Below, one piece after another: positions 21,721 through 54,019 of a stretch of DNA of 64,000 nucleotides (position 1 is the stretch's first letter; each line of letters starts with the position of its first letter). The position numbers and the translations under genes are program-made. The notes beneath the pieces were generated by a model. It made no database searches, was not told where the DNA came from, and worked only from the letters and a program-made list of their open reading frames with translations. The stretch is from Cloeon dipterum (Eukaryota > Arthropoda > Insecta > Ephemeroptera > Baetidae): contig NC_088789.1 of the NCBI RefSeq assembly GCF_949628265.1, forward strand, positions 28,513,883-28,577,882. The letters run 5' to 3'.

Positions 21721-21721
21721 T

Positions 21722-22105
21722 TTAAGACCGTCTTTGACGAAGTTTCTGATCACACCAATCGATTCCTGAGGGTCGAATTAGGTAAAATCGACTTTTTTCC
21801 GGCCAAAAAGTCCAGCGCGACGTTTCGAACTTTTTTCCCGCCAAAACAATATGAACCTATTTGCGAGCACTGCGCATGCGTGAGAGCTGGTTTGAGCACT
21901 TTCAGAGAGACCACCTGTACGGTTAACTTCTTGGTCAGATCCAGCCAGCTCTGACGCATGCGCACTTCTCACATTCATATTGTTTTGGCGGGAAAAAAAG
22001 TTCGCACGTCGCGCTGGACTTTTTGGTCGGAAAAATATCAATTTTATCTAATTCGACCCTCAGGAATCGATTGGTGAGCTCAGAAACTTCGTCAAAGATT
22101 GTCTT
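21722..22105. mobile_element. TTAA-bounded fold-back element, family B copy 1
   Basis: This is a near-palindromic element of about 385 bp. It begins TTAAGACCGTCTTTGACG and ends with the degraded complement. Paired inner blocks include 'ctgagggtcgaattaggt' and 'acctaattcgaccctcag'-type sequences. Two mirror-image E2F consensus sites lie at 21833-21846 and 21983-21996, and NRF1-like TGCGCATGCG cores lie around the centre. It is non-coding. Confidence 0.8.
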
Positions 22106-23919
22106 CAATTAAAAAAATAATAAAAATCCCGATTGAACGATTTTTAAGATTTTCAAAACGTCCAAAAATACATTCAAGTGCATTAAACAAGTATTTTAAA
22201 TTTTAAAAGTCAGTGACCTTGAGCAATCGCATTCGCGTTAGAGATAAATCGATCCTCTACCTCTAGTCGCGGTCAAGAGAAAAATTACAGAAGGCCAAGT
22301 AGCAATAAATCAAACAATAATGTAAACAGTAATTAAGGAAAAAGAGCCGCGCGAAATTCTAGCTGTTGGTGGCCGGCCGGCTGGCCCGACGATTTCCGCA
22401 TAATTGCGGTTTTTAACCTTTTTCTTCCACACTCGCGCGCATAATTGGCAATTAGTTCATCATCCGCTAGACCGCAATTTGCGAAAAAAAAAGAAAAATA
22501 ATAATAATAATCACGTCGGCGGTGCACCGCGCGCCGGGTCACAGCCATTGGAAAGCAATTTCACGTGAAAACAGGTCCAGCCTCTCGCGTTCTCGCGTGA
22601 CATTCACCTTGCTCTCGCGCTCACACACACACTCACATACTAAAATAAGCCACGTTCAATGTCAAGGTCAACGCTCACCAGCCACTGCTGCACAGAAAAA
22701 ATTATTAAATCACCTAAAAAATCGTCTCCACGTTAGTATGAGAAGCGGGTTAAACTGCTTAAACCCTTTGATGGTTAAAATATAAAGCGCATATCTCTAT
22801 TGTTCATGGTGCGTGGGAATTCCTGAAATGGCCATTTTTGTTAGAAGCAAGTGAGAATTGTATTTAATTAAAAGCGCAAAGTGACATTTCGGGTAGAAAT
22901 AGTTTCGATTTGGTGCGATGCCCTGCTAACATGATTCTCCAGATATTTCCGAATAATTGCTCAAATTTTCGGAAGCTAATTACAGAGCAACGGCGCGGAA
23001 GAGAGCTGCTGACGAAATTAAAATAAACGGCTGTAGGGCTTGGCTCTCTGACAGCCGTAGAGAAGACCTCAAAACTCCAGCATCCGCAATTTGCACACTT
23101 TTTTACGACCTCTCGGAATACTAGGCTTTTCTAGCGCGGCGGCGGCAGCGATTAAAAAATATGTAGCGTTCCTATATCAATACACACATGGTCGTAAAAC
23201 AGTATCTCATTTCTGTATCTGTGCATTTATTTATTTGCGTGCTTCCTCCTGGAGCAGGTAGAACATCAAAAGCACTCGTTTATTAATTTATTTCGATTTT
23301 CCTTTCACTTGGCGCTACAAATTCCCTCGTTGGTATGTGGGGCAGTAGACCGATTAATATGGACCGGCGCAAAGCAAAGCAGAGGAGACGCGATCGAGCA
23401 TCCGCGTATATCAGGCTCATATTATTTTCAATTTAAATAAACACCAAACTCCCATATGTCCCTTTGATTTAATTTAATACAATTCCTCTCTAATTGTTTT
23501 AATCAGAACACAATTTTCAATTATTTGTGAATATCAGAGCATCACAAGCGAGCGAAATATAATGGAAGTAATCTCTCGCTTCGACGCTTCTCCTAAAATT
23601 TGATGTGAAAAATTGAGGTTGAAGTGAACGCGAGCGAGCGAGCTGTCTTTCATGTCAGAAAAGTATGGATAGTTTGATTTCGTGTGTTCTTTCGTTCGCT
23701 CTCACCGCAAGGACGAGAAGGTTTATTGTGAGCCCGAATATAATACACTCGTCGCGTCTGCTTTCTTCGTAATTGCCTTCACACATTCTAGTAAATATAC
23801 AAATGCACACGAACCACACTTAATAACCAACCACTCTATAAAACTTTTGAATGCATTTCAAGGCCGCCCGCCGGACGATAGATGATTTTCAAAATGACGT
23901 AACCAAATTAGGTTTTAAC
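22106..23919. other. Gene-less stretch
   Basis: I see no supportable exon. GAGCGAGC-type tracts occur near 23630-23642. Confidence 0.4.
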
Positions 23920-24349
23920 TTAAAGAGGAATGATACTGCAAAAGCCTGGAAAATGCATAAACTCATCCCTTAGGATTCAGTTAAAGCCTAAATTGACCTA
24001 AGAAGCAGTGCAATTTTTTGAGAAAATTTGCTGGAAAGTTAGCGTGCTTTTCAAATGGTAATGGCTGTCTCCTTACTTGAAATCCGATTTAATTTCTAAA
24101 CCAAGAGTTTCCCCAATAAGTGGCATACACAATTGGACAGATCTCGACGAGAGGAATCGGAATATGCCAAGAAAATATGTTCAAGCACTGTAAATTTTGG
24201 AGAAAATTGGCAAAATTTGAATTTTTATTGTAGGAAGGTCCGTTTTTATTTATTGCAAATTGTTAAACAAATTGTTTATCGATCAATTGTTTATGGCATC
24301 CAACAATTCAAATAATTTTTAATTGTTGCCCTGTATTATTCCACTTTAA
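23920..24349 (-). mobile_element. Family A MITE-like element, copy 6, full length
   Basis: This is a 430-bp reverse-orientation copy with intact TTAA at both ends (23920-23923 and 24346-24349). The termini are AGAGGAATGATACTG and TATTATTCCACT. It is one of three best-preserved copies, with 708-1134 and 50150-50581. Confidence 0.8.
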
Positions 24350-26222
24350 AACATTTCAAGAGTAGACAAAATGCTACTAAAACAGTTTTTAATTATTCCT
24401 TTACTAGAAATTTATCTATAGCTCGTTTTGATTCACCGCACTGCTTCATATTGTTTGAAAAATCCGGCTTGTTTGGTAGGGTGTGCAGCAGAGCAAATAA
24501 AAGCAAGGTCGCCGCGCCGCTGAACGCATAAAGAATAATTTACTCGGACCGCAGGCAAGTGAAAAAAGGTTTTTTCATTTACAAGGAGAGCATTACCGTT
24601 TCTGGAGAAATGTTGAAAAATAAAAAACAGCTCGCTATGTACGCCGAGAAAGCTGCGTTTTAGCTCTGACAGATCCCAAATATTTGTTCAAGAAATTTGT
24701 TAAAATTGTGACTTAAGCAATTCCTTTGGAAAATCTTCATCTTAAATCAAACACCAATCAGGGCTGGGCATGAGTATTATTCAGGTAGTTTCTCCCACAT
24801 TTTTAGTGCTCATGAAAAATTATATTTAAAATGTTTAAAAACTAAAAAATTCCACGAGTCAACAAAAACCCATTGCCTCTCAATAATATGACCGCAAAAA
24901 ACCACAGCACTGCAAGTTTGGGAAACTCCCCGGGAGATACCCAGCCCTTTGCTTTTAAAAAATTGGAAATTTCCTGCTCTCGATCATTAGAGGATATAAT
25001 CTTCAACTTATTTTGTTATTCAAGCGAAATCACGAGTAGAGAACAAACAAAAGACGAATCCGACCCAAAAATTGAGAAAATCGTGACATAACCGGTGCGC
25101 GCGTTGTCGATCGAGTGGCGCGGTAATTGATTGTAATGCGCTGCTTTCTCCTGATGCAATCTGGAATTCGGATCCACCTGTGGCACACAGCAAGCAAGGC
25201 TTTCCATCCCTTCCCACGCAGTTCCGGCTGCCTCTCTCGCTCGCTCGCTCTTCGAGTCGGCGAGAAGCGAGAAACGGCTGCTGATGCATGGCGGATCCAC
25301 CGGCGCGCTGACCCACTTTGGGGGCTGCCTCAGTTATGGCTCGCCTGCTAATTATTCACTATCCTCTCACCTCGCCGCGCGCACATCTCTCTCGAGCTCG
25401 GCGCAAAGCGACCACTTTTCCATTCCTATTCTTCATCCTCGCCCATTGTTTCCTCACGTGCTGCGCTGAAATTTGCCTACAATGCCGCTTAAAAGGCGCA
25501 TAAACGCATTTCGGACCATTGTGTGTCGAGTTTGAATTCGAACAGGAATAATTGTGACGGAATTCACTCATCTGAGCTCGAGAAAAAAAAATGAGCAAAT
25601 AATTCCCGTGAAATCCCAATAAAATAAAATTTACTCCGGCATATTAAGCGTCTTGTTTGTTTATCTAGCTGATTAGCTTATGTTAGTTAGTATAATCGAT
25701 AGAGCGGCTGCGTGTGTTGCATCACGACTTGAACGGTACGGCGTCATTGAGGTCAAAGAGGAGCGCTGGGTGCCGACGCCGACCGCGACGCCACTTGCCC
25801 AATGTCAAGGATGCTGCTCAATTTCTCACGTTTATGCAATCGACACAAATACAATTATCAAAGGTGATTGAACTCTGAATTTTTAATTTCATTTATTGGT
25901 AAAAAGAAACCAAAAGTCTGAACGCGTGGTGAAAAAGGATATGCAAAAAAGTAGTCCAAGAGTGGCAGGCCCACCGGTCGATTAGTCTAGAAATTAGCGA
26001 AATGCATGGGTGCGTGATAGAGGCAGGTGCCCGGCCGGCCATAAATTAAGTTTTGCACCTGACCCACCGTAGCGAGGGGCCCACGGACGGGGCTAACTGC
26101 CGCCCATTCATCACAGCGAGACGCGAACACTTCACATTTATTGCCACAGCGGCATCATTACACTAATCGCAGTTAAATACGCGAAAAGAGAAACAAAATC
26201 GAAGAAGTTCATACATAGGAAT
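24350..26222. other. Gene-less stretch
   Basis: CpG- and CT-rich segments occur between about 25080 and 25480. Overlapping short frames here have no splice support and no family resemblance. It may be a regulatory region. Confidence 0.35.
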
Positions 26223-26228
26223 TTTATT
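26223..26228 (-). terminator. Polyadenylation signal of BTB gene B
   Basis: AATAAA on the gene strand, 120 nt beyond the stop codon. Confidence 0.5.
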
Positions 26229-26347
26229 TTAGGCCAATCGTCATTCAACAAAATTAATTTATAGTTGGAAAAAAGGACCGTCGTCATCGAATAAAATTTA
26301 AATAAATATATATAATTTTATGCATAGCTAATGGTACCAAATCAATT

Positions 26348-28488
26348 TTAATTTAACTTGTAGCGAAGGCCCTTGAAGACAGTGAAGGCCTCGTTGGTGA
26401 CAGTCTTGAACTCATTTGTTGTTGGCCCGTCCTCCTTGTGAAAATGCTCCAGGTTGATATTGTCGAAGATTTTCTTAGTTTCGGCGCCGCTGCTCTCAAA
26501 AATTCTATATGGCTCGGCCACCACGTGGCGCATGAACTGCTCTTCGCGCAGAACTACTTCTAAAGAAATGCGCGAGTTCTTCGGCACGAAAAGGTTCGTT
26601 GTGAACGTAATCCACTTGTTCAACCGCAGTGAATGCCTGGAAATTTTATAAATACGTACAGATTTAAAAAAAAAGGTTAATAAATTAATATAACCTTTGA
26701 TTTGCGAGGAAGACCCTGTCTTTGGAAGGACCATAGTCACTGATCAACCTCAATTTCCACTTGTTACGGATGATGTTGCGATGCTGGTGTTCCTTCCTTT
26801 CCAGGTGGCGCATGACATCCTTGGCGGCGAAGTCCTCCACTTCCAGGTCCAACGGCGAGAAGATATACACGTCCTTGATTGTGATGTTCTCGTTGGCCAC
26901 GAACGAGAAGACGAACTTGTTCTCGCCTGGGTCCATGGCGATGAACTCGCCCTCGCGGACGACCTCTCTCAGGTCGAGGATTTCTTCGTCTCTGACGACT
27001 CTCAGGTAGCGATACAGGGCACGCTTCCTCTTAGATTCCTTGCAGTGCTTAAAAAGAGCGTGATTTATGGGCAGATCATTGAAGGTGAGCAGAGGAACGT
27101 TGTCGCGCAGCTGGCTCAGCAGGAACAGCGTTTCTTCCGGCAGCAGGATGTGGTAAAGACGAGCCAAGTCTCCCGGCCTCAAGGTCAGAAGACGCAAAAA
27201 GGGCAGAAAGTACGTGCGGTAGTATGTCCTGCAAAAGGGTTTGAAAAACGCTAAAATTCTGTAACACTGTTGAAGGTTTCACACACTTTTTTCAAAAATC
27301 TCAATTTGACATGCTTAAAGACTGTCTTTGACGAAGTTTCTGAGCGCCCGAATCGATTCTTGAAGGTCGAATTAGGTAAAAGTGGATATTTTTGTGACCA
27401 AAAAGTCCAGCGCGACGTGCGAACGATTTTTCCCGCCAAAACTATGCGAGAAGTGCGCATGGCTGGATCTGACAAAGAAGGCGGTCTCTCTGCAAGTGCT
27501 CTAACCAACTCTGACGCATGCGCAGTTCATATTGTTTTGGCGGGAAAAAAGTTCGCACGTCGCGCTGCACTTTTCTGGTCGGAAAAATATCCACTACACC
27601 TAATTCGACCCTCAAGAATCGATTGGTGTGCTCAGAAACTTCGTCAAAGACGGTCTTTAAGGCTTGTTGAGCGACAGTGCTTGACTCTATGTATTATGTT
27701 CGCCAAAAATAAAAAAGGATTTATTTGAATTCCAAGAAAAGAGTCATTAATATAATATTAATGATTTAAAAGTCACCTGTATTCTTCAAGATTTTGTATC
27801 CCACCACGCAATTCATTCAGGAATTTGAAGCCGGCGATAATCAGTGTTTCTTCCGAGTCAACGCTGAGCATGTCTAGAGTCAAGAACTCTCCCATAACAA
27901 CCTGCTTGCTCAAAGCAATGTTGGCCGTGAGGAGGTTGAACAGTTGTTGCTCTGGGTCGTCGCACACAATCTTCTCGCACACAGTGGCCACAGTTTTTGG
28001 CAATTTATTTCTTTCTAGAAAATGCAGCCACACGTCCTTTTTGATAATCTCGGGAAGCGATTCTCTTAATAATTTGCAGAGGTCGTCGTGCACCATTAAC
28101 GATTCGGCCACTCTTGCTACATTAATAATGTCAGAAATTGACATTTCTGGCAGTCGGAATTCCTTGGGATTCTGAGCATAACTGTAAGCAGGAAATTAAT
28201 TAATGAAAACGGTGCCCGATATAAAAGCATTTTCATTTAAATACTTACTGCAGAATGAGTCGCACAGGCCTGGAATCTGTGATGGTGAATTTATAATGAG
28301 GGGCAACCCCCGCCCAAGAAGAGAACTTGACGCTGCAGGACGACAGGTTGTGCCTTGAAACAAAAATTATCTGCTCTCACGGAAAAGGTTAACACTTTGA
28401 AAATCCAGCTTTTCAGGAATCATACCTCGCGTTTGTCTTCTGGGCCGAAATAAATGGGAATCGTCTCATCTACGTCAGTGGAAGCCAT
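26348..28488 (-). CDS. BTB-BACK domain protein with PHR-like C-terminus, paralog B (5 exons)
   Basis: Exons: 28488-28426, 28370-28249, 28181-27777, 27228-26695, 26636-26348, totalling 1413 nt and 470 residues, with intron phases 0, 2, 2, 2. Exon 2 must start at 28370 (gagagcag acceptor), because the closer ttcaag acceptor runs into a stop codon. The N-terminal third reads as a BTB fold (PIYFGPEDKRE, then PVRLILHYAQNPKEFRLP). Next is a helical BACK-like part (VDSEETLIIAGFKFLNEL), then LPINHALFKHCK and a beta-rich end (FVFSFVANENITIKDVYIF ... EAFTVFKGLRYKL) resembling a diverged PHR domain. BTB-BACK proteins usually act as Cullin-3 substrate adaptors; that role is inferred. It sits about 0.8 kb downstream of paralog A on the same strand with the same exon plan. 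A TTAA fold-back element lies in intron 3. Confidence 0.85.
27315..27660. mobile_element. TTAA-bounded fold-back element, family B copy 2 (intron of BTB gene B)
   Basis: This is a 346-bp palindromic element with exact TTAA at both ends. The termini are TTAAAGACTGTCTTTGACG and CGTCAAAGACGGTCTTTAA. It carries paired TTTTCCCGCCAAAA / TTTTGGCGGGAAAA sites. It lies in the 548-nt intron between the third and fourth exons of BTB gene B and accounts for most of that intron's length. Confidence 0.85.
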
Positions 28489-28776
28489 TGAGAGGATTTC
28501 GTCTCCTGTTCACAGAAGCACGCTCACAAATGATTCTTTATTTTGCTAGTCTAAATCAACAGCAAAAAATCATAGATCTGCCAGTGTGTGGTGAAAAAAT
28601 CATGCGTTCTCAGCGAGTTTGGCATTTCTGCGCTGCGAGAATTTCAACTATTTTCCATCAATTCAAACGGCCATAGTGTTCATGCAACAATAATTATTAA
28701 ATTTCAGGCACTGCATTATTATAATTAATTTGATATTGTTTGAATTATATATATTTTGCTAATAAGACGAGTTGCG

Positions 28777-29085
28777 TAAGCCCTTATTGTTAGTGTTCAT
28801 CGTAATAAATTTAATTTTAAGGCACTTCCGCTGCAATTTCAGACTCTGCTACTTGTGCGTTCTTCACTTTCTTCGTGAAAAACTCTTTTTTGAAATAGAA
28901 AATCTTTTCCAACGTTTCTGCGGCGAATAGCTAGACTAATTTCAGGTTTCAGCACGTCAAAAGAAAGCGTAATTATTAAGTGAAGAATTCCCAGTGGCAG
29001 GATTGAGTCTGAAATCGCAGCGGAATAATGCCTTAAAATTAAATTTATTAAGAAAGTATATGCGGTGGCGCCAACGAACAACTGG
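28777..29085. mobile_element. Fold-back element, family C copy 2, between the BTB paralogs
   Basis: It starts taagcccttattgttagtgt. It has the same 'aatttaattttaaggcactt' arm and its complement as the copies at 7773 and 30320. The left CTCF-like block is deleted and the right one is degraded. It lies in the intergenic gap of about 800 bp between the two BTB genes. Confidence 0.65.
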
Positions 29086-35930: not shown

Positions 35931-36311
35931 TTAAAGACCGACTTCGACGAAGTTTCCGAGCACACCAATCGATTCCTGAGGGTCGATTTAGGTAAAGTGG
36001 ATGTTTTTTCCGACCAAAAAGTCCAGCGCGACGTGCGAACTTTTTTCCCGCCAAAACATTATGAATGCGAGAACTGCGCATGCGTCAGAGCTGGTTTTAG
36101 CACTTGCAGAGAGACCACCTGTACGAATGACTTCTTTGTCAGATCCAGCCAGCTGTGACGCATGCGCAGTTCTCACATTCATATTGTTTTGGCGGGGAAA
36201 AAAGTTCGCACGTTTTGCTTGACTTTATTTGGTCGGAAAAATGTCCACTTTACCTAATTCGACCCTCAGGAATCGATTGGTGTGCACAGAAACTTCGTCA
36301 AAGACGGTCTT
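35931..36311. mobile_element. TTAA-bounded fold-back element, family B copy 3
   Basis: This is a palindromic copy of about 381 bp, beginning TTAAAGACCGACTTCGACG and ending GTCAAAGACGGTCTTA (right TTAA eroded). The left E2F-type site is exact. The right one has an extra G (GGCGGGG). Confidence 0.8.
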
Positions 36312-37680
36312 ATCCTTATTTTAGGTCATCCCACCATGAGCGTTTTTATCTTCAATAAAAAATTATTTATTTCGCGCAAAATTGCGGAAAAAACACAAAC
36401 AACAGAATTTGTTTGTCAAACCCTCTTAGAAATTAATTTATTTGACATTAATAATATTTCATGCCCGACTTAGAATTTGATTGCATCATCACGCGACGCA
36501 CAAAGCCATCATAAATGGCTCTTTCCGACAAATTTACGCCGGCTGCGCTGCGGCGCGTACATAATAAAGTATTACTCACTTAGTTAGAGAGATACGTGAG
36601 ACGGATAAGAGGCTCGTCGTTCTTTAGAGGTATATTATTAACCCGGCATCGGTGCATTTGTGAGCTGCATCTTTTCCCCGATTACGCGCCTAATCGAAAA
36701 TAAACACAGCCGGGAAAGATGATAATAAAACTAACAGTTAACTTAATCGCCGACAGGTTGTTAAACAAAGGAGAATTTATTTCAGAAAAACACTGATTAA
36801 TTAAGGGGACATGCGATTGCCGGATGTATAGTAACAAATAAATTATTTTTGGAATGACTGCATGACGGGAATGTGAATCTCTCCGAAAATTTCGAATTTG
36901 AACGATTTCTCCTGCATGCATTTATAATTCAGAACGCGCTCCTCTTTTGCATTTGCATTTGTATCGCCCGGTATTTTTTGGCCTGCCTGTGTGTCACTTT
37001 TGATTTGTGTTTAGTATGCTGACGCCGTTTATCGGCAGGAATCCAAAATTATTATTTGGTACAGCAGATTTTAAATTGAATTCAGTGCGTGTAAAATTAG
37101 ATTTGGGTATGTAAATTCGTTTGATTGGCTCGCTGCGGGGTTTTGTATCGAGAGCTGTCATCGCGGTCAATCTTAACAACACCTCCATCGGAAATATCTG
37201 GCCCATATTTTGGGAGGGAGCTAGCATTCACGATTTCGACAGCGGCAGATGAGAGTGACCTGGCGATTTTTGCTTCTGATAAATACACGCCTTCGTCAAT
37301 TGAAATTATCTCTTTACAGTTTTTAAAACACGGCGCAATACCGTAAATATTTTAAAATGATTAAAAGCATCATAAATGTGCGGCCTCTCTGAGATCTGAT
37401 TTTAATAACACGCAACCTACGACGAGATGAACAAAATGAATGAATATTCATCTCTGCTGCAACTTTCTAATATGTATTTTTCGAGTCGAAATACCAGAGC
37501 TGGATTCCGTGATATAATTAAGTGCCGCGTGCGAGTGAGCGAGCGAGCGAGCGCGGTGATGGTCAAGAAGTTTATATTGCATTAGGCTAGGAAGTAGGAC
37601 TCTCGCAGCAAACCGAGATGATGAGAGAAGAGGAGCCTTATTATTGCTGCTTCACTGGGCAAAAAATCCAACGACGCGGT
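36312..37680. other. Gene-less stretch upstream of CC2D2A
   Basis: I see no exon. A GAGC tract (about 37536-37556) is the only simple feature. Confidence 0.4.
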
Positions 37681-37917: not shown

Positions 37918-40900
37918 AGCCGGCAAAATAAACACCCCACGTTGCAATAAACGCAGTCAGTCGGAAAACATGAGCGAACAGACGCAGGAAATTAATCCGC
38001 GACGCTCTTCAAACGATGAAGAACGGCCTCAGGGCGAATCTCCTGCGACGGTTACGAACCTTCAGGAGCTGCTCGGCGCCGCGGGGGCGGTGGCTCAGTT
38101 CAAAGAGGCCAGCCCCGAAAAGCTGGCGGATTTGTCGCAGATCATTTTCTATCCGTCGTCGAAGCCAGGTGATAAAAGTGAAATTACTGTAAACTCGTAA
38201 ATTTATATATTATTTTTTTTAAAAAAAAGTTGTTGCGGAGGAAAAATTAGGGTCAGGTGGCCGGGCTAGGTTTCTGGAGGAGGAGGGAATTTATGTGCCA
38301 ACTTTGCCGAACGTGAGGTGGAATATGAGGAGCAAAATGGAGAGACGTTTGGTGACAAACGCCATCCGCAATAAGTATGCCGTTTGATTTGTGCGCCGTA
38401 ATCCTATACACGAACACGATGCATTCGCAGAAAATGGTTTCAAGAAGACGGCGAGTTGAAGAGTTGCGAGGAGGAACTGCTGGAAAATCCAGTCAGGCCC
38501 AATTTGGACGAGGAAAACTCGAATATCGCGACGATTTTCAGAGATGTAATAAAAATATAATAATAAATTCCGCAAAATTAAATTATAAATTATTTTTATT
38601 AAAGTGCAGCAACGACGTGGAGAGGTTCATTCCGTCGAGCGAGACGATGATTTTGCTCGAGCTGCAGCTAAACAGTTTGCATTTCACGCAGCATCCGCTT
38701 TTCACCGTCGAGCACACTTTGGCGCAGAGATTGACCGAGACGTTTTACTGCTACCAAAAAAAGTTGGCAGCCAGGTCGTTCGAACGAATGTCAAAAAGGT
38801 TAACAGCGCTCAGGCACGCTCACGACTTGCTGAAAAACAAATCAGGCGAAGGGGTGGAAGAGAAACTGCAGCGGTATTTATATTTACGGTCTAATGATTT
38901 TTTTATTAATTAAATAAAAAAAAACAGGTACGAGCTGGAGATAAAAGATTTGCGGACGACGACCCTTTTGCAAGGCGCGGCGGAAAGGTCGGTTTTGGCC
39001 GCCGTCCTGGCCGTTTGGGAGGAGCTGAAGGACTTGCGTGAGCGGCAAGGGTTCGTCGGCTGCCCCACAAAGTTGACGGTGAGCCAGGCTGTCGTCTCGG
39101 AAGGACGCCGCAAGAAGGAGGAAAGGTTGTGGAAGGATGCTGTGAAGCAGGTTGTCAAAGAGATGCGCAGAGAGCAAAAGGTGCGGAATAATTTACGAAT
39201 TTTATAAAAATATTATTGGCCTTACAATTAGCCTCAGGAGGAAGAGGAAAAGGAAAACTCGGACTGGGTGCAACTGGCTGGAAAATTATTAAAAGAGTCG
39301 CTCAAACCACCAGGAGAGCCGGAAATGATTATCAATTTGAGCCAGGATCTGGAAACAAGTATCGACTCAAAGAGTTTAAAGTAATTTTTTTTTTAAGTCG
39401 TGTTCTAATTTTTAATGAATATTAAAAATTATGTAGGGCGCAGAATCGACTGCAGAGTCACCTGCATCGGCAAAAAGTGTGTCTGAAGATTTTGTACAAT
39501 GGCAGCGAAGTTTGCCAAAGCATGCCGTACGTGCTGGACAGCCAAACTTTCAGCGCCGACATGAGCATTATGCTGCCGCTCTCCGCTGTTCACTGGCCGC
39601 AAAATTTCAGCCTGCAAATTTTGCAGCACTCGACAATAAAGAAAGCACTAATCGCCGAGGTGGCTCATTAAATTAAATTTTTATTTAATACTCAATTAGG
39701 TCAACCATTTTTGTCCAGGTCAGCCTGCCCTTGCCCGAGAAAGGGTGCACGCGGGAAGAGGTGCCGGTGCAGAAGGTGTTTTTCGGAAACGAGACGCATT
39801 CAGGGTACATTATGTGCAAAACGGGCTGGGGAAAAGACGCCGACGGCAATCTGCGCCAGCCGAGCGGCCGGTATTGGGAAACCGCGGTGTCTAGCGTCAC
39901 GAAAAAGGTGCCGAAAACGCCTGAGGAGCTGCAAATGTGGATAGACAGGTCGCGGATCGACCCAAACAACCCGGCCAACAGCGAAATTATCAGCAAGGCG
40001 AAGGTAATTGAGGGGAGAAACGTTTTTTTAGTCAGGTGAATTTGAATTTTTTTAGAATCGCGCGCTGGGCGACTTGAATTCGGATCCTCTGGCGTCTGAT
40101 CTCGATTTCTGCACCGATTTGGAGTTCAGGGAAGGAGACGCGAGACTAAAAATACTGGAGCTGCGGGAAAAGGGCCACCCCGCTTTTTGCAACATGAAAA
40201 TGGTGCCGATCAACGCGAGGGAGCTGCCAGAAGGATTGTTGAAGGTATTTCTTCGTTTATTAAAACCATAATCTCAATTTAAAAAACGTGAAAAATGAAG
40301 GAATTCAGAGACAGACACTGGCAGCAGTCGAGTCAGGTAAATTTCATCGAGGAAGAGGCTGACGACTCGCTCGCGAATCATAGAACGTGGGCATTGAACT
40401 CAATTAGGGAAATCAAAGAGAAAATTCAGCGACAGGGCAGGCTCTCCAGCAGGAAGAAGACCATGAGGGAGCTCGTCACCGAGGACCTCGTCCCCGACAT
40501 TGGGTGCCTATATATCTTAAAGACCGTCTTTGACGAAGTTTCTGAGCACACCAATCGATTCCTGAGGGTCGAATTAGGTAAAGTGGATATTTTTTCCGAC
40601 CAAAAAGTCCAGCGCGACGTGCGAACTTTTTTTCCCGCCAAAACAATATGAACGTATTTGCGAGATCTGCGCATGCGTGAGAGCTGGTTTGAGCACTTTG
40701 CAGAGAGACTGCCTGTACGAATGAGTTCTTTGTCATATTCAGCCAGCTCTGATGCATGCGCAGTTCAGTTCTCGCATAAACGTTCATATTGTTTTGGCGG
40801 GAAAAAAGTTCACACGTCGTGCTGGACTTTTTGGTCGAAAAAATATCCATTTTACCTAATTCGACCCTCAAGAATCGATTGGTGTGCCCAGAAACTTCGT

Positions 40901-43539
40901 CAAATACACGGTCTTTAAATAAAAAAATAATAATTCAAATTTAGGACGCTCGGACTGACGTTGATGGCCTGGTTCCAACCGTCGCGTCCGCTGCGTCCAA
41001 TGCGCAAACCGCGGCCTCAGGTGGCAATTCAGGGTAGCACGACGCACAGCAGCACCCTGATCGTGAACGTGGTGAGCGCCCTGCAGGTGCCGACGCGCAA
41101 GGACCTCGACCTGGAGCCTTCGAACGTCAACTCTTTTTTCGAAGGGAGTCCGACGAACGCGGCGGCGTTCAACACGGTGGCCGTGCGACCTTTCGTCGAG
41201 GTCAGTTTCAAGGGTGCATCGGCCAGGACGAGGGCTGCCGAGGGCGCCAACCCCACGTGGAACTGCGAGCTCCAAATTCCAATTCAGTGCGGGATCGACT
41301 TTTAATTTTATTAATATTGGTTTAATTTAAATTAAATTTAGAGAGGAAGTTTTTGATCACGATTTGATCAACATTCGGCTCTTTGACGAAATCGTCGTCG
41401 ACGTTTTGAACGACGAGAGGCTGCGCGACATCGACGTGCACACGAGGCACGAAAAAGCATGGCTTGGCGCGATTAATATTCCGTTTTCGGCCGTCCAGCG
41501 AACCGCAAAGGTAAAACTAATTAAAACAAGTTTCACTCACTCACACTTGGCATTAGATCGACGGCACGTTTCCTCTGAACGCGCAACAACTTTTGCTGGG
41601 CTACGAGCAGGAGGAGCAGAGCAGACAGTTTGGGCCCCTTTTGGGTCCGCTCGAATCGCCCAGGGGCTCGGCCAACTGCACGTTTCTCAACTTTTTCATC
41701 ACTCTGCAGCCGCCGATGGTTCTCGCCGAGTCGGAAACGGTATAATTAAACATTTTCTAGATTAATTAACTTCTATTCTCATTTCAAAGACTGAGAGGTT
41801 GGAGTGCATGGAGAGCGGTTCAGTTGAAAGGCACCTCGAGGATTGGAGTTCGCAGGTTACCGCTTTGTTTCCTGACAGGAAAGTGCCCGCGTTGGTGGCC
41901 ACCGCGAACGGCAAGACGGCTTGCTTGACGAGATTTTTCCGCCCCATCAAACCCCCAGGTTCGAGAATAAATAAATATTCAACCTTGCATCAACGTTGAT
42001 TTACAAAAATCCTTGAAAAATGAGTTCATTATTGAAAGAGAAAATACAGATAATGCTTATTAAGTTTGAAAACTAATAAAATTTTTAAAAGAAATACAAT
42101 TTTTATGAAACACTTTGATCTTCAACGTTGACTGACAAAAATTCTTAAATTTACAAAGCTCAGCCAATCTGATTGCATGACTAAAGTTGGGAACAGTGAA
42201 AAAAGGTTCACCTAAAAATAAATTTTTCATTTTCCAAATTAAAAATTCTAAACATTTAGTGAAAGTCATGATCGTAGACGTTCAACAAAAAATCAACGAT
42301 GTTAAAAATGTTACTTTCTGACAAATATTGAAATTGAAAATGGTGCAAACAGTTGATCAATAAAATAGTCATCAATTTCCAATTAAAATTTAGTTCATTT
42401 TTCCCCATTGTTGAAATTTAAAACCATGTTGCAGAGGTCAAGGACACGCACAGTCGCACCCTGGCGGAGGTGACCTCGAGATTCGTTTCCCTCATTCCGC
42501 GAACGCAGTCCAACGTTTGTCTAACCGCCGAGGTTGAGTAATAATTTTTCAACAATATATTTAAATGACAATTTTCTTTGCAGGAGATAATGAAGTTGTG
42601 CTACGGCGATCAGATGTCCAGCGCAATTTTGCTCACGTGCTTCCTGCAGACGTTCGACCTGGACGCGTGGCTGCTGATCGGCTGGGGCGTGATGAGGGGC
42701 GCGTCCTACTTCGCGCTCACCAGGGAAAAGCAGTCCCCAAACGAAATGGCCATCTGGGACGTTTTCACGGGCTTAAAGTCCAAACTGGACGACCCTTTCT
42801 GCCCGGCGACGCTGGTGTGGGCAGTCGCCAACAAGGATAATGTCAGTTTCAGGTTATAAAGTTTATTTAAATAATGTTTTTGGGAATTAGATTTGGGCGA
42901 ACGTGCAGAAGGAAAGTGCCCCGAGGCGGATGCGGTTCGATTTTTCCCGTCTGGCCGATTGGTCGCCGGCGTTTGTTCCTGCGGGAGCCGTCGCAGCTCC
43001 AGGAAGAGAAACTGTTCTCCAACCAGAATCCATTCAGTTCACAAAAACGCCATCGGAATCGTGCAAGGAGCTAGTTTCCCGACTTGAAAGCATCCTCAAA
43101 GAAAATTTCATGACCTGGCGAACAAACCTGAGGTACGAAAATATTAAAAATTTAATTTCAATTTAAAATATAAATATTTAGAACTCGTTGGAACCGGCAT
43201 TGCTGCTCTGTGCTGAGAAAGGTTTTATCGACCTTAGAAAATCAAATAAACTGCAAAAAGGAAGCGATGCGAGAGCTGCAGCCGCTAATCGCAGCACACA
43301 AGGTGATAAATTAATTAATTTCTATTTATAATTATTTCGAGCTTTGTCAGATGATCGGTTTCCCGCTGCACATGAGTTACGCCGACGACAAAGAGGTGAT
43401 CCGCACGTTGTACTCGACACAACTGCACAGCCTGCGGGACGCCGAGGCCGAGTTCGGGATCGCGGTGGCCGCCTTCCCTTACGCCAACAACGCCGTCTCT
43501 TTGTGGGTCTTCGTCGCCGCCCTCTCGCAGCGCAGGTGA
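37910..43539 (+). CDS. Cc2d2a: CC2D2A, ciliary transition-zone protein with C2 and transglutaminase-like domains (19 exons)
   Basis: Exons: 37910-38168, 38230-38374, 38431-38545, 38605-38873, 38928-39180, 39232-39380, 39437-39659, 39719-40003, 40056-40244, 40301-40503, 40945-41286, 41342-41510, 41557-41739, 41790-41958, 42435-42532, 42584-42841, 42891-43132, 43182-43302, 43351-43539. They sum to 3861 nt and close in frame to 1286 residues. Order: polar N-terminus; helical part (KDLRERQGFVGCPTKL); MKS-type beta region; VTEDLVPDIGTLGLTL; a C2 domain (about 725-870) with VRPFVEVSF, NPTWN and LGAINIPF; NGKTACLTRFFRPIKPP; a transglutaminase-like part with WLLIGWGVMRG; and a C-terminus with WNRHCCSVLRK and GFPLHMSY. 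CC2D2A belongs to the MKS module at the transition zone. It is shorter than vertebrate proteins, mostly at the N-terminus. Intron 10 contains a fold-back transposon. AATAAA lies at 43647. Confidence 0.95.
40517..40918. mobile_element. TTAA-bounded fold-back element, family B copy 4 (CC2D2A intron 10)
   Basis: This is a 402-bp palindromic copy with TTAA at both ends. It starts only 13 nt after the exon-10 donor (gtgcct at 40504) and ends 26 nt before the next exon, so it makes up nearly the whole intron. E2F-type sites lie at 40630-40643 and 40792-40805. Confidence 0.85.
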
Positions 43540-46790: not shown

Positions 46791-46864
<74 letters not shown>

Positions 46865-47405
46865 CGGCTGACACGATACATACTAAAACGGACAGGACCT
46901 GACGATAATTTAATAACAGGATGACACAAAAGCTTCTCCGGCCGCGCTGCTCCCAATTCTGCCGACAGCGCTACTTAATCCTCAATCTGCAAACAAGATT
47001 ATAGCATTTGATTCGCATTAACCATTTTATCTAATCGTAGTAAAATGGATATATATTAGTGTGCTACTTAAAATAGAGATAAACGTGGCTGTTTTGATGT
47101 GTCACATTCCAGTGAAAAATTATTTAATTTTAACCAAAATAGAATTTCTTATTTCTCGAGAATTTGTAATGTGTTTTTCGTGTGCTAGTTTGAGATCCCG
47201 CATTTTGTGAGTGCCGAGAGTTTGCATACTGTGCTGTAATGTAGTTTGCGGGCGAAGAACGGCTGACCTCAAACCATCAAGGACGTCAACGGTTTTTTTT
47301 GCCAATTTCACGCTTCAATTCCTCTTTTCAGGTGTGATCCAGCACTTTCTTCGCTTCATACTAAATACGTCAAGGGAGTTAATTAAAACTAGCCAATTTT
47401 TAAGC
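44524..47405. other. Gene-less stretch
   Basis: No supportable exon. It contains CT tracts near 45826 and the long CT microsatellite at 46795-46861. Confidence 0.4.
46795..46861. repeat. (CT)n microsatellite
   Basis: An uninterrupted CT/TC tract of about 67 bp. Such tracts can bind GAGA-type factors in insects, but the length also fits an ordinary slippage microsatellite. Confidence 0.9.
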
Positions 47406-47756
47406 ATTGATACAGACCGAAAATTGAAAATCAATCGATAAACAATTTGCAATAATAAAAAAGGCCTTGCTAATTCAATTTTTTCAAATTTTCTCCAAAA
47501 ATTCCAGCGCTTTACAACATTTTCTAAGCAGATTTCGATTCCTCTGGTCGAGATCTGTGCAACGGCGTATGAAACCTTTTAAGGAAACTCTTAATTGTAA
47601 AATAAAATCAAATTTCAAGTAGGGAGACAGTCCTCACGATTTGCAGCCACTTTTCTAAAAATTTGACGCAGCTACTTAGGTAAATTTTGGCTCCAACTGA
47701 ATTTTACGGGATGAGTTTATGCATTGGCAACAAGAATTTTCATCAATCCTCTTTAA
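47406..47756 (+). mobile_element. Family A element, copy 8, second subfamily
   Basis: This is a diverged copy with 'gcgtatgaaaccttttaagg', like the 18155 copy. It ends CAATCCTCTTTAA with TTAA at 47753-47756. The left end is eroded. Confidence 0.65.
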
Positions 47757-48840
47757 ATAATTCGGCAAAAGTTTACCGTTTCAGAGCAAACCAGAAAATC
47801 GCATCCATTTTACTTTTTCTTGATAGCTAAAACGTATATAACGAGCATCTGACAGATGGTCTTCACTTTATCAAACTAAATTACAGGTTCTTTCCGGACC
47901 ATCTCTGCTCACGAGCATGAAATCCAAAAGCAATTCTTATATATGCATTTAGGGTGTAAACCTCATTACTAAAACATTCTTATCGTGTTGTTGGAACAGC
48001 GCAATTATTAATTAACCAGTTTTGTCGGATGAAATTGATCAGTTCAGTCTAATCGATTTAATCAATTAGAAAAACAACTTTCTTATTGATAAATTTCCAT
48101 ATTCTAATGCACTGGGAGCAGTCAATTTGAATGACGTCCGAGTCCGAGAGCGGCGCAGAGTCTAGTCCACTCACGTCATAGGAAAAGAAAAGGAAAGTGG
48201 CGGCGAGTGCAGCCAGCGCTGGTAATTCCGAGCACAATCGCGGAGAAAAGTGCAAGTGAGCACAGGAGACAAATAATAACGCGGCGCCGCAAGTAAATCC
48301 GGTCCACGCATGAGTCACCGCGTGCGCACGCGGCGCACAATGGCCAAATATTGTGCGAGAGCCGCCGCTTTCCACTCGCGCGGGCGCGATATTGGCACCG
48401 GGCCGGAGAAATGCGCCGCTTTGCATTCTGCATGCGTGATTATCACCTTCTATGTGTTTATGACGGAATACGGGTATTATTCAACTCGCCTGGCGACGCA
48501 CACGGAACGGAACAGGATTCACGCCACTCTCTCCGCCCGCACCTCAATTTCGTCTTGTCACCTTTTTCGCACTTGTTACTTAAACTTTTGAAACAGTTAT
48601 GGTTTCAGACTTGAGACAGATAAATTATAACTGACAAATGTTACACTGACATATTATTTTCATCACCTCCATAATTTTTTTAAACAAAAATCTGGGGTTT
48701 CCAGCTTTATTAGGAAGTCACCGGGAACCATGATCTAAAACATTTTTATTTAATGAAAAAGTTAACGTCAAAAATATGTATAAGGCGTTGTTCTGCGCTC
48801 CTCAGTTGCAGCTCTGCCATTCTGAAATTTTTTTTAAATT
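47757..48840. other. Gene-less stretch
   Basis: A CpG-rich block at about 48120-48560 gives overlapping short frames on both strands. I regard them as composition effects. Confidence 0.35.
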
Positions 48841-49118
48841 TCCTTGCTCAATTTTTACCAATTTCTTGCACAAGAAATGAATTTATTCCATTTTTCCCAT
48901 GTGAAAAACTCAAATTTGCGGTCGGAGTGGTCACAATTTCCTCTACACTGCAGATTTTTCTTTCAAATTGCCAATTTCTGCCTCAATTTCTCCAAAAATG
49001 TATCTATACCAATTTTTCAAGTCCAGTTTATGAGCAAATAATTAGAAAATTATAGAAAACTGAGGAGCAAACATTGCCTGCATTTTTAAAAAATTATTTG
49101 CGGGTTTTTTCAACCCTG
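48841..49118 (-). repeat. Repeat family D, copy 5
   Basis: This has 'accaatttcttgcacaagaa', 'ggtcggagtggtcacaattt', 'ctgcctcaatttctcc' and 'gaaaactgaggagcaaacat', ending in 'caaccctgcc'. It is in the same orientation as the copies at 1 and 34596. Confidence 0.65.
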
Positions 49119-49863
49119 CCTTGCCTAGGGTAGCTAGTCTGTGAATTTTTCCTGATTTTTCCTATCTTTCGGCTCGGCCCGAGTCCTCCCCTAGAATAAA
49201 ATCCGTAAATTTCGCATCACATTTCGAAACAAACCTAAAAAAAGGAGTGCGCTGCGCATCACTTGTCTATTTGATGACCGGATTATTATTATTATTGGAT
49301 CCTGGAGAGAGCAATAAAAGACTTTTGACGAATTACTCCAAATACAAGCGCAATTAAAAAATGTAGGTCTGCGAGGACTTTGTGAGGAGCCGCGCGGCGT
49401 ACCCGATTGCTCAGTGTGATGTCACTCACTCATGCTTTATTTTGCAGGCATCAAAGTCACTCTCGTTGAAATCAAAGTCGCGCCTCACTTGAAACTTTCT
49501 TTCTTTCTTTCTTCTTTGTCGCATTCCAGCGTGCATAATATACAGTTATGATCGCGGCCTACGTGAATTCGCCTCGTTGCAGAAAACTCTCTCCGCGCGC
49601 GCGGCGATAGATCCGCTGCCTCCGCCGCCGCCGCCGCGAGAGAGGATGACGTCAGGTGGATCGAGGAACCAACCTGGCTGCATCCGCGCCGCGCACTTTA
49701 CTCTCTCCCTCCACGCAGACCTACATTCTGCGGTCTCTCTCTCTCTCTCTCTCTGGCTCGTGTTTTTCCCGGCTCTCACCCCTCTCACTCACTCACTCTC
49801 GGTGGGCAGGATTTCCCTCTCTGTGGAAATATTCATCGGCAGACTCAACCCTGATTCTGAGTC

Positions 49864-50014
49864 TATATAGCATCCCGCCGCCGAGCAGAGAGCAGTCATT
49901 TGCACTGCAGCTCCGCTTGTGAACAATATTAGCGCCGAGACAGCTAGTCAGTCCGCAGGGATACTCTTTCTTACTTGGATAATACCCTTTGCTCCTCGCC
50001 GCGCCAACAGCAAT
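49864..50014 (+). promoter_or_regulatory. Candidate TATA promoter and non-coding first exon
   Basis: TATATA lies at 49864-49869 and a CAGTCATT start-site match follows about 29 bp downstream (49893-49900), the standard spacing. A consensus donor (AAT followed by gtgagt) lies at 50015. CT tracts at about 49736-49755 lie just upstream. The nearest plus-strand gene with an unpaired 5' acceptor is the ZP gene at 57267, so this could be a distal first exon of it. This is inference. Confidence 0.4.
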
Positions 50015-50149
50015 GTGAGTACCGAATTTATTTATCTAAATTTCTATCCAACACCGACATTCACCTCACTGTCAGCGATTTGCGTGTGTGATTACAACCC
50101 AGAAAGAAATATTCACTCTCTGGGCACATTTTTTTTGTTTAGATTTTAC

Positions 50150-50581
50150 TTAAAGTGGAATGATACAGGGAAACAATTGAAAATTATTTGAATTGTTGGA
50201 TGCCATAAGCAATTGATCGATAAACAATTTGTTCAACAATTTGCAATAATAAAAAAGGACCTTTCTACAGTAAAAATTCAAATTTTGCCAATTTTCTCCA
50301 AAATTTACAGTGCTCGAACATATTTTCTTGGCATATTCCGATTCCTCTCGTCGAGATCTGTCCAACGGTGTATGCCACTTATTGGGGAAACTCTTGGTTT
50401 TGAAATTGAATAGGATTTCAAGTAAGGAGACAGCCATCACCATTTGAAAAGCACGGTAACTTTCCAGCCAATTTTCTAAAAAAATTACAGCGCTCCTTAG
50501 GTCAATTTAGGCTTTAACTGAATCCTAAGGGACGAGTTTATGCATTCGCAACAAGCATTATCCAGTATCATTCTTCATTAA
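50150..50581 (+). mobile_element. Family A MITE-like element, copy 9, full length
   Basis: This is a 432-bp copy with TTAA at both ends. The termini are AGTGGAATGATACAGGG and CAGTATCATTCTTCA. It lies between the two candidate distal first exons. Confidence 0.8.
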
Positions 50582-50779
50582 AATTCAGTAATTCTTTAAA
50601 TAATAAATTTCAAAGGCAGCAATCCAAACACACATTTGATTTTTTTATTAAATAAATTCCGAGAAGATCGGTTGCGTGTGCGCTCTTGGGGTCTTACAAT
50701 TAGGGGTGCGTTAAATTTTCCCTTTTGACTCTCGTAGTTGGGCCGAAGGGGGGCGGTGAGCTGCGTAAAGACAGTCGGT

Positions 50780-51000
50780 GTTCGTTCGCCTCGGAGCGCT
50801 CGCTGACACCCATTTAGTTTCTAGTTCGGCACTGCCTCTTGGTGTCCGCGTTTAATTCTTCGCCGCGCTGCTTCCGCGACCGTCGAGCAAAGCAAAGCGG
50901 AATAGAAAGCTCTCTCTCTCTCGCGCTCACGTTAGTTGCTCGCGCACAACCGCTCGGATAGCAGCTGTTTTCGCGCTTTCCACCAAAAACGAGCAGACCG
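50780..51000 (+). promoter_or_regulatory. Candidate second distal non-coding exon
   Basis: This is a GC- and CT-rich block. It ends 'aacgagcagaccg' with a consensus gtgagt donor at 51001, and a CT tract lies near 50911-50925. No TATA box is seen. It could be an alternative leader exon of the ZP gene about 6 kb downstream. Confidence 0.3.
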
Positions 51001-51183
51001 GTGAGTGCGAATTTTATTTTTTATGTTTGCAATTTAGTATTGTTGATTTTAAGTCGAGGAGGAAGTATTTTAGCATTTTTTTAGTCGGATTTGGACAAAA
51101 ACCAGATTTAATTCCGTATAAAAATGATTCTTTTTTTAAATTTGAATGTTTGAAATTTAATTTGAGCGTTTTTAATATGTTTT

Positions 51184-51337
51184 ATTTCGTCCTGGTCCCG
51201 GTAAAATTGCGCAACGTTCAACAAACATCGAGACATTTTCATTTTTAAATTGATTGTTGACCGTTTCTTGCAACAAGGAAATTCACGTTCGGTTGTTGAA
51301 AGTTGCGAAATTTTACCGGGACGGTATTTATTCGAAT
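51184..51337. repeat. Short palindromic element, family F copy 2
   Basis: This is diverged from the 31967-32099 copy. It has ttcgtcctggtcccgg at the left, accgggac at the right, and 'gttgttgaaagttgcg' inside. Confidence 0.7.
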
Positions 51338-53646
51338 TATTAAATTCATTGATTCGGCATACTTGAATTGCATCTTTAGAAACGTGAGTGTATTATCTCT
51401 AGCCTGATTCAAAATCAATAGATGTGCTCATTCACGGTATTATTGGCATTCTCCGCATCTTTTGTGCAGACGCAATTAGGGCTCTCCGCCATTGAGAGAG
51501 TGCAAGTCATGCGATGCTCTTGTGTCAATCAGAGTCAATTTTGCATTTTGCTGCAATTCTTTTCGCCGTCATCGAAAGTGTGTCAACCGCGCGCGAGCGA
51601 TCGACCTCGTGTGTTACATTAGAGCAGCACTCTGTGAATGAACCGAACGCACCTTGGCCGTCACACAAGGTTAATTGGCGCCATTCAAACATTTCCGGAT
51701 GCAGAAATAGATTTGTAAAATTAATATTGAAAATTGCAGTCTACAAGGAAAGTCTGGCTGGCGGGCGAAATGAGCGCAATGCGAGATTTCTGGCAGCTTG
51801 GTCGCACAACAAGGCCGCATGTCTGGCGCACTATTAACGATTATTGTCGGCGCGGCGCTAATTGAGGCTTACTCGTCATCGCGTATCGCACACACGTACA
51901 CGCAGCATCTGGGCCGCATTTCATTTTTACTCGTTTCGTGCGAGCATTGTGTGCGCACGGAGAAACCGCAGAAATAAATCTCGCGGCTGCGCGTGCAATT
52001 ATTTAACTGCTGCAATCCGATTTATTTTAATCTATAAGATAAATGGACCAGCCTCCATTAGCGTCCGAGATGTTGAGCAACGCATTCGCAGAAACAGTTG
52101 CGTACGATATGAGTTCAAATAATATTGTTCTCGCGGACACAATGAGCAGAAAAGTGGAGCTCTTTCTTGTGTCATCCCTTGCAGACAATGCACAAATTGA
52201 GTCGCGCTTATTCATTTCTTGCTAACAATGTTACATGCGACTGCCGAGAGTACAAAGGGTTATGGTTTCGTCCGTGCAAGCGCCACATTTGAAAAGAGAG
52301 CGGCAGTAAAAGTTTAGCGTGACTGCCTACCTCCACCCGGATGCACCAAACAATCTCTTAAAATTCAATTTACCTCTAGTGAGCATGAAAAATTGCTTTT
52401 ATAAATGATAATTGTTTCAATTTAAAAACAAGATTCAATGAAGAAACAATTTTTTTAAAATTAATTTTGATTTTTTAAAAAAAATCTAAACGCTCAGTCA
52501 GCTGTACTAATTAAGCGCATAATTTAAATGAACTCATCGGTCTGACAGGATAATTAGGTGCCCCTGCACGCTAATTATACGAGTGCGTGTGAGCAGCAAA
52601 TTGAGAAACTGCATCTCGGCGAGGAAGCAGGAAGCGCGAGCGACTTTTTGATTCCAATTAAACGGCAATGATATTCGTGTCGATTCGTCCGTCTGCTGCG
52701 CCGCCGCGTTTTCGGGGCAAAAACACACACACACACACACACACGTGTGCACGTCTCGCGGGAGATAATATCTCTATCTGCCTCTTATTGAATACGCGTA
52801 TTCGATCGGAAAGTAGGCTACGGATGCTCGCGGAATTGGGTGGTCGTGCCGCGCGAAACACGCGTCGGCAGGCATCAATTTTGCGCGCGGATTAAAAGCG
52901 CCACCTCCTCTTCTTTGTTTTGCGCCTCCGACAGACCAAATTGGCCAAACAAAGGGGATCAGGGGACATGGAAACATGTGTTCGCAATGCCGATCGATTG
53001 GTTTCGAGAGATTCCAACGAACGGTTCCTGCGCCGCTGTTAAAATCCATCAATTAAAATTAAAGTAAAGCGCGCGCGCGCTCGCGCTCGTCGTTGAAATT
53101 ATGTATAACTTTCTCGGTCAGCAAGGCAGTATGTCAAATAACATCATCGCCCGGCAGCATAAATTATCCGTCATCTCGCTGGCAGAATCCATGCAACGCG
53201 CGCGCGCGAAACCGGTTCTTATTCAAACTCACTATTATCTGCACCCAGAGCCAGAGCGCCGCGACTTTCAGGAATTTCACGAGCCTCCCCGCGGCTCCTG
53301 CAGGCAGCAGGCGACGCCGTTAATTTTCGTTCTGTGAAAAACCGAAAATCACGGATTCCGTATTTGAGAAAACAATTATTATTATTATATTTCCTCTCTG
53401 GTCGGCCGCGAGATGATGTGTGGGAAACCGCGGCGGCGAGAAGCGAGAAGCAGAGAGGTTCATAAATTATCACCGCTGCCAGACACACCCCCGCAAACAC
53501 AATAGAATACACGAGGCGAGATAAGCGATCATCAATCACAAAGTAAACGGGACATTAAAAGTGTTTCTAATTCTAAAACGAATAAAAATTTATGTTAAAT
53601 TGCTTTCTTTAAAATAGATGGAACTTGAAATCATCTTGCTTATTAG
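51338..53646. other. Gene-less stretch
   Basis: It contains an (AC)n tract at 52723-52744 and GC alternations near 53068. No exon is supported. Confidence 0.4.
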
Positions 53647-54019
53647 TTAAGACTGTCTTTGACGAAGTTTCTGAGCTCACCAATCGATTCCTGAGGGTCG
53701 AATTAGTTTAAATGGATATTTTTTCCGACCAAAAGGTCCAGCGTGTTGTGCGAACTTTTTTCCCGCCAAAACAATATGAATTCGAGAACTGCGCATGCGT
53801 TAGAGCTGGTTTAAGCACTTGCGCCTGTACGAATGACTTATTTGTCAGTTCTAGTCAGCTCTGACGCATGCGCAGTTCTCGCATTCATATTGTTTTGGCG
53901 GGAAAAAAGGTTCGCACGTCGCGCTGGTCTTTTTGCCTGTAAAAATATCAACGTTACCTAATTCGACCCTCAGGAATCGATTAGTATGCTCAGAAACTCC
54001 GTCAAAAGACGATCTTTAA
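53647..54019. mobile_element. TTAA-bounded fold-back element, family B copy 5
   Basis: This is a 373-bp palindromic copy with TTAA at both ends, and a small deletion in the centre. Both TTTTCCCGCCAAAA-type sites are intact, with GCGCATGCG cores beside them. Confidence 0.85.

Follow-up and report, generated by a model that had tools for sequence, protein, structure and literature searches.

A 64,000-nucleotide stretch of the Cloeon dipterum genome (contig NC_088789.1, positions 28,513,883 to 28,577,882; "the window" below) contains five copies of a palindromic transposon that carries a 14-bp E2F-type site, TTTTCCCGCCAAAA, on each arm. Among the sampled copies this site is the slowest-changing stretch of the element, and it has very probably been kept because of some cis role. 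As the first-pass annotation of the window had proposed, the site fits the E2F consensus TTTSSCGC (PMC2891812) and is spread by a palindromic transposon family. The count given there, five elements with a site on both arms and nine of the ten sites exact, also held: exact TTTTCCCGCCAAAA occurs nine times in the window (five on the + strand, four on the -), the tenth arm has one extra G, and all ten sites are confined to the five elements, one per arm. With up to 2 mismatches the window gave 15 matches, against a mean of 1.9 and a largest value of 6 in 100 shuffles.

The window copies are about 350-400 bp long; the element of the family, palindromic over almost its whole length, measures about 385 bp. 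From the outside each arm reads TTAA; AGACCGTCTTTGACGAAG; an outer block with CCAATCGATT and GGGTCGAATTAG; a second E2F-like motif, TTTTTCCGACCAAAAA, with a variable core and lying 38 columns outward of the E2F-type site; TTTTCCCGCCAAAA; and, inward of it at columns 151-161, an NRF1-like TGCGCATGCGT, followed by a short centre. The genome searched comprises 190.1 Mb in 10 contigs, of which C1-C5 measure 33-43 Mb each. The exact E2F 14-mer occurs in it 1,931 times (958 + 973), compared with 1 + 1 for the reversed pattern; an exact outer 28-mer occurs 733 times (control 0), and 878 places match a 23-mer from the centre with three mismatches or fewer (control 0). A first look gave 1,688 element candidates, of which 40 were scored. 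The copy number of the family is roughly a thousand. Among the first 100 exact 14-mers listed, all on C1, 97 belong to the family: 70 form +/- pairs at element spacing and were assigned by that spacing alone, and of the 30 unpaired ones 27 lie within family copies, one lies outside and two were not read. The sole extra-family 14-mer among those read, at L119:1501 (C1:24099686), has glutaminase-like exons nearby on the same strand.

Rates of change along the arm

Column rates were taken from two samples, neither chosen by the E2F site. Sample 1 was drawn on C1 with the outer 28-mer (71 loci, 68 two-armed copies) and sample 2 on C2 and C3 with the exact centre 23-mer (60 loci, 120 arms); because the sample 2 copies were picked by their centre, both of their arms are free of selection. 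The combined sample held 126 copies. Loci without two arms at element spacing were dropped (3/71 from the sample 1 rates, 2/60 and 5/131 in the combined analysis, 4/131 from the count of target-site duplications, TSDs), as were 52/254 ends in the TSD count whose termini were weak or whose first 14 columns had gaps, columns below 60% occupancy, and columns 136-141, an optional insertion. Copies L001-L030, which had been chosen by similarity, served for the anatomy, for the arm hidden Markov model (together with the window copies) and for a first TSD count that also took in L031-L101, L108-L127 and the window copies; they were excluded from the rates.

The first-pass annotation had named excess conservation of the motif over the rest of the arm as its own test, and such an excess was found. 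In the combined sample one E2F window was the slowest of 367 14-column windows, with 26 changes against a median of 105, and the other ranked sixth with 42 changes, in a ranking where the sampling favours the 28-mer block and the centre. Changes on terminal branches amounted to 1.9% in the E2F columns, 2.2% in the NRF1-like TGCGCATGCGT, 4.1% in the outer block, 7.1% in the outer E2F-like motif, 6.6% in the terminal columns (some TSD bases included) and 7.9% in the background. Sample 1 by itself gave, per site, 1.6% for E2F, 2.2% for the NRF-like site, 7.7% for background, 7.1% for the outer motif, 6.8% for the ends and 5.5% for the centre. Its 28 E2F columns showed 30 terminal changes where 141 were expected from the background, and 3 internal changes where 30.6 were expected. 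Because the motif has hardly any changes common to several copies, the source lineages were themselves constrained. In sample 2, differences from consensus were 2.5% for E2F (41/1637), 2.3% for the NRF-like site (30/1285) and 4.9% for the outer block (196/4030), against 13.6% for the outer motif, 9.9% for the ends and 10.0-18.6% for background groups, where part of the difference consists of common variants found in many copies. Within this sample alone the ascertained centre probe was slowest, and the E2F windows stood 11th and 14th of 367. The E2F rate stayed flat with background divergence, at 1.5, 1.0 and 2.3% over tertiles of 6.2, 11.0 and 16.3%.

Ascertainment on the E2F motif was rejected as a source of this pattern, the samples having been drawn by the outer 28-mer and by the centre. 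Composition and CpG mutability were likewise rejected: the outer E2F-like motif, which resembles the site in make-up and shares its arm, decays about as fast as the background, and CpG columns had changed at 6/506 in the E2F site but at 360/2916 in the background. A high-copy family multiplies whatever it contains, and the founder might simply have had an E2F-like site that its copies inherited. Under such hitch-hiking, however, the columns should decay alike, and they do not, with the outer motif as the control; the column rates contradict a chance origin of the site's retention, which we consider highly improbable.

The TSD lies outside the element and was taken as a neutral clock; its two middle positions were scored, and only changes without a slip or deletion explanation were counted. 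At TSD positions 2-3, 17/292 sites had changed (5.8%), compared with 72/3536 in the E2F columns (2.0%, Fisher p 3e-4), 64/2754 in the NRF-like columns (2.3%, p 0.0016) and 306/8976 in the outer block (3.4%, p 0.034). Because the E2F columns change at 2.0% and the TSD at 5.8%, the sites have decayed less since insertion than the neutral bases beside the element, and some constraint is likely to continue on sitting copies. The slower decay of the E2F and NRF-like columns is also what host co-option would give, that is, copies serving as regulatory or replication elements, with selection on single insertions keeping the E2F and NRF1-like sites, in the manner of the CERP2/CELE2 MITE promoters of Caenorhabditis. 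That explanation would require selection to act on some thousand insertions one by one, and we think it quite unlikely: the depletion is strongest in internal (common) changes, i.e., in source lineages, the gap is only twofold with rare variants, and motif decay does not visibly go along with TSD decay, with E2F changes at 13/1190 in copies with unequal TSDs and 29/948 in copies with intact TSDs.

Candidate readers of the conserved blocks

Our proposal, put forward tentatively, is that this Kolobok-like element carries on its arms sites for the host factors E2F/DP and NRF1/EWG-like. Host E2F/DP and NRF1-family proteins would bind the arms, at TTTTCCCGCCAAAA and TGCGCATGCGT, in dividing (germ-line) cells, with the outer CCAATCGATT block as a further part of the arm's set of sites. 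The bound factors would make the element ends accessible, or would time mobilisation to G1/S, and as a result mainly lineages with intact sites would spread; each insertion would then plant a pair of E2F sites. The genome encodes DNA-binding domains of both kinds, with 7 matches to the E2F/DP family and one NRF1-type domain, and TTTTTCCCGC stands in its PCNA promoter (L134:1381), about 120 bp upstream of the likely ATG. The same promoter also has TTCCCGCC shortly before the likely start codon. For human NRF1, a one-base variant is bound at 1.27 uM compared with 0.31 uM for the consensus, about 4x weaker (PMC10810270), and the arm's ACGCATGCGC equals, as its reverse complement, this weaker-bound variant.

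Several observations weigh against a host factor as the reader. The NRF1-like TGCGCATGCGT is one base off the GCGCATGCGC consensus. The outer block has no E2F match and is also slow, which fits transposase binding (in sample 1, arms opposite the exact-28-mer arm differ there by 3.2%, 74/2330). When only variants below 5% are counted, the gap shrinks to 2.0% for E2F and 3.9% for background. Selective survival of consensus-keeping changes within the E2F site was not found: TTTSSCGC is kept in 15/53 mutated arms, compared with 20/42 random single changes (binomial p 0.006), and in 15/33 mutated arms when those with the two frequent changes are left out. Because the changes in the site are not biased towards TTTSSCGC, a role in transposition with an incidental E2F match is viable. 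Finally, internal conserved blocks need no host factor, given that the Galileo transposase binds inside long arms, its THAP domain having one site about 70 bp inside the end and others within the long inverted repeats (PMC3688188).

The slow blocks could thus be binding sites of the mobilising transposase within the long inverted repeats, their resemblance to E2F and NRF1 sites being incidental; we rate this as possible though doubtful. The Galileo case, in which the repeats are Foldback-like (PMC3688188), is a direct precedent, and it led us to lower slightly our estimate that E2F is the reader and to raise that for a transposase. Three separate constrained blocks per arm, one of them the outer block, the second E2F-like motif farther out and residual changes that ignore TTTSSCGC all agree with a transposase. 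The outer repeat of the motif is nevertheless unconstrained in its core, the terminal columns decay near background (6.6% against 7.9%), and the constraint seems to be partly post-insertion. A chance match of two blocks to two host factors is, in our judgement, unlikely, and the loss seen in isolated copies, described below, hits the E2F site and spares the NRF-like one. Taking these points together, we regard it as plausible, while falling somewhat short of probable, that E2F/DP reads the 14-bp site, judging from the DNA sequence.

The family has known counterparts. In Brassicaceae, miniature inverted-repeat transposable elements (MITEs) amplify E2F sites, about 85% of such sites lying in transposons (Henaff et al. 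2014 via PMC12595863), and E2Fa binding is reported for the transposon-borne sites (PMC12595863); the plant precedent mentioned in the first-pass annotation does exist. In both systems high-copy MITEs multiply E2F sites, and most genomic sites lie inside transposons (here 97 of the first 100 exact 14-mers listed). The plant system, however, comprises hAT/PIF/MULE MITEs and Helitrons with 10-bp motifs, whereas the one described here, in an animal and known from sequence alone, is a single Kolobok-like family with a 14-bp site per arm, an NRF1-like site and measured constraint. Galileo and other Foldback-like elements of Drosophila share the long inverted repeats with several internal conserved or binding blocks; there the binder is the element's own THAP-domain transposase, of the P superfamily, and here the blocks are E2F/NRF1-like and the target duplication is TTAA. 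In Caenorhabditis, the MITE-derived germline promoters CERP2/CELE2 are bound by HIM-17, which has THAP domains (PMC9757741), and these too have paired regulatory motifs in MITE inverted repeats that are better conserved than their neighbours; they differ in that their promoter activity is established and their conservation was measured across species, whereas here the motifs are E2F/NRF1-like and the constraint is among copies. E2F sites in animal transposons are as such not new, because 9,748 of 26,934 E2F1 peaks in human MCF7 cells fall in transposons (PMC6486989). These peaks belong to many, mostly non-MITE subfamilies, and not to one family with a perfect paired consensus site. Among the papers listed in a search of the open full-text literature there was no report of a MITE family spreading E2F sites in arthropods, which is weak evidence of absence because subscription papers lie outside that search.

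MITEs with transcription-factor sites are a known category, of which this family is an animal case, and the evidence that the site matters to the element is clean. Transposon spread of factor sites is often claimed, and the site's own constraint within the element is less often shown. About a thousand copies make a built-in test of constraint, for which the sister motif that decays on each arm is the control, and the E2F site passes it. Should E2F be the binder, the family would couple the spread of a transposon to the cell cycle of its animal host and sow pairs of E2F sites over the chromosomes; should it be a transposase, the slow columns would chart cleanly where it sits inside the long arms of a MITE.

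Isolated copies and loss of the E2F-type site

A copy counted as isolated if its nearest sampled neighbour lay more than 0.5 Mb away (14 loci, 13 scorable, 25 arms); this rule was set once the data had been seen, and it measures isolation against the sampled copies only. The exact E2F site was present in 9/25 isolated arms, compared with 188/228 arms of dense copies (Fisher 2e-6), and the NRF-like site was kept equally, in 18/25 and 176/228 arms. Background divergence was lower in isolated copies, 9.0 against 12.3%. Isolated copies with E2F loss on most arms are L042, L043, L044, L157-L160, L192 and L193; in L043, L157, L160, L192 and L193 the sites of the two arms are broken differently. The same C-to-A change in the site occurs in 9/25 isolated arms and in 2/228 others. 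The eight copies that have it do not group (identity 0.804 within, 0.846 over all pairs), and for 7/8 the closest sampled relative lacks it, the closest of L042 being L043, which has it. With no threshold, the farther a copy lies from its nearest sampled neighbour, the less often it has the E2F site (rho -0.31, p 3e-4). Taken singly, the two samples agree in sign (p 0.015 and 0.061), and the corresponding rho is -0.03 for the NRF-like site and -0.01 for background. Among the matches listed, C1 from 4 to 34.3 Mb has 1 family E2F arm to 4 outer 28-mers, and C1 elsewhere up to 36.03 Mb has 98 to 36 (p 0.024), in counts made by hand with some loci common to sample 1.

One explanation is that E2F reads the sites, that dense clusters keep their pairs by purifying selection and that isolated copies persist mainly after loss. 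We consider it unlikely, and the pattern is a lead only, because the rule is post hoc and the loci are few. Sorting by chromosomal position in particular is not favoured by distance to the chromosome end, which shows no trend (rho 0.03); cut-offs above 5 or 6 Mb show nothing, the cut-off above 4 Mb shows the reverse (121/146 against 76/107 exact, p 0.03), and only a cut-off of at least 8 Mb shows loss (7/19 against 190/234). Alternatively, an old TTTTACCGCC lineage may have been scattered differently. Loss of the E2F but not of the NRF-like site in isolated copies is nonetheless a point for a host factor, because a pure transposase site does not predict it. If selection does sort the copies, the family would serve as a natural experiment, spanning the genome of an animal, in which ectopic E2F binding is selected for in some places and against in others.

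Transposon class, distribution and the window copies

The element is short, high in copy number, palindromic in its arms and flanked by a target duplication, as MITEs are, and at about 385 bp it is too short for a transposase. TTAA was present at 129/202 clear ends, and the four-base flanks were identical left and right in 37/80 copies with both ends clear. Over the six bases beyond the TSD, left and right differed in 57-68 of 89 copies per position, and TAAA stood on both sides in 4/89. The arm consensus ends in TTAA followed by AGACCG, with its mirror at the other end, so that the termini are AG...CT and fit 5'-RR...YY-3'. The Kolobok superfamily has a TTAA target duplication and 5'-RR...YY-3' termini (PMC9587614), and in both respects it resembles this element; the difference is that the element here is a short palindrome without coding capacity and with no superfamily transposase linked to it. 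We call the family a Kolobok-like non-autonomous MITE, and not a proven Kolobok, because no coding partner is tied to the element. The term fold-back used in the first-pass annotation is right for the shape, the ends being Kolobok-like; its description of the copies as TTAA-ended stands for copies 2, 4 and 5, but the TTAA is decayed on copy 1 and at the right end of copy 3.

The piggyBac transposase domain PF13843 had 0 matches in the genome and likewise 0 in 14 control genomes. PF20700, a Mutator-like domain that may not cover Kolobok, had five, at L203-L207 (C1:38.38, C1:35.01, C2:28.05, C3:11.49 and C3:16.51 Mb), with open frames of 409-420 amino acids. No family arm was found in the 3.45 kb examined at each of these loci, a span in which their true ends were not seen. 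The frames form two families, probably recently active judging by their copies, which are 99.7-99.97% identical over 3.45 kb. A search for a family copy that encloses a transposase yielded none among five single-arm candidates: a partial second arm turned up in two, a full one in two more, and the fifth was partnerless in 4.7 kb. A wide arm pair in L201 holds a different palindromic element nested inside the family copy (L201:1760-2400).

Among the matches listed, the copies look strongly clustered by region on C1-C5, e.g., at C1:1-2.6 Mb and 35-39 Mb and at C4:28-32.5 Mb, and C1 from 4 to 34 Mb has few sites. No telomere repeat was seen at the six contig ends read. L190 and L191 (C3:9.18 and 9.22 Mb) have nearly all their private changes in common, an apparent local duplication carrying the insertion, and this pair could help to date post-insertion decay.

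Table 1. Positions of the five family copies and of their sites in the window; bounds under Remarks exclude the flanking TTAA
Feature	Position	Strand	Remarks
Copy 1, palindromic MITE	21721..22108		flanks TTTA/TCAA, decayed TTAA; bounds 21725-22104
Copy 1, left-arm E2F-type site	21833..21846	+	exact
Copy 1, right-arm E2F-type site	21983..21996	-	exact
Copy 1, NRF1-like TGCGCATGCG	21871..21880	+	right-arm counterpart 21955-21964
Copy 2, palindromic MITE	27315..27660		TTAA at both flanks; bounds 27319-27656
Copy 2, left-arm E2F-type site	27428..27441	+	exact
Copy 2, right-arm E2F-type site	27535..27548	-	exact
Copy 2, NRF1-like CGCATGCGCA	27515..27524	-	no left-arm match
Copy 3, palindromic MITE	35931..36314		flanks TTAA/TATC, right flank decayed; bounds 35935-36310
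Copy 3, left-arm E2F-type site	36043..36056	+	exact
Copy 3, right-arm E2F-type site	36187..36201	-	one extra G
Copy 3, NRF1-like TGCGCATGCG	36075..36084	+	right-arm counterpart 36159-36168
Copy 4, palindromic MITE	40517..40918		TTAA at both flanks; bounds 40521-40914
Copy 4, left-arm E2F-type site	40630..40643	+	exact
Copy 4, right-arm E2F-type site	40792..40805	-	exact
Copy 4, NRF1-like TGCGCATGCG	40668..40677	+	no exact right-arm match
Copy 4, outer conserved block (example)	40540..40577	+	TTTCTGAGC...CCAATCGATT...GGGTCGAATTAG; arm columns 24-61
Copy 4, outer E2F-like motif TTTTTTCCGACCAAAA (example)	40590..40605	+	core variable; internal control
Copy 5, palindromic MITE	53647..54019		TTAA at both flanks; bounds 53651-54015
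Copy 5, left-arm E2F-type site	53758..53771	+	exact
Copy 5, right-arm E2F-type site	53893..53906	-	exact
Copy 5, NRF1-like TGCGCATGCG	53790..53799	+	right-arm counterpart 53865-53874

An Rfam search of the window gave no match. Beyond the five copies, at 58490-60343 on the + strand, the window holds a long exon of a zona-pellucida/cuticlin-type protein.

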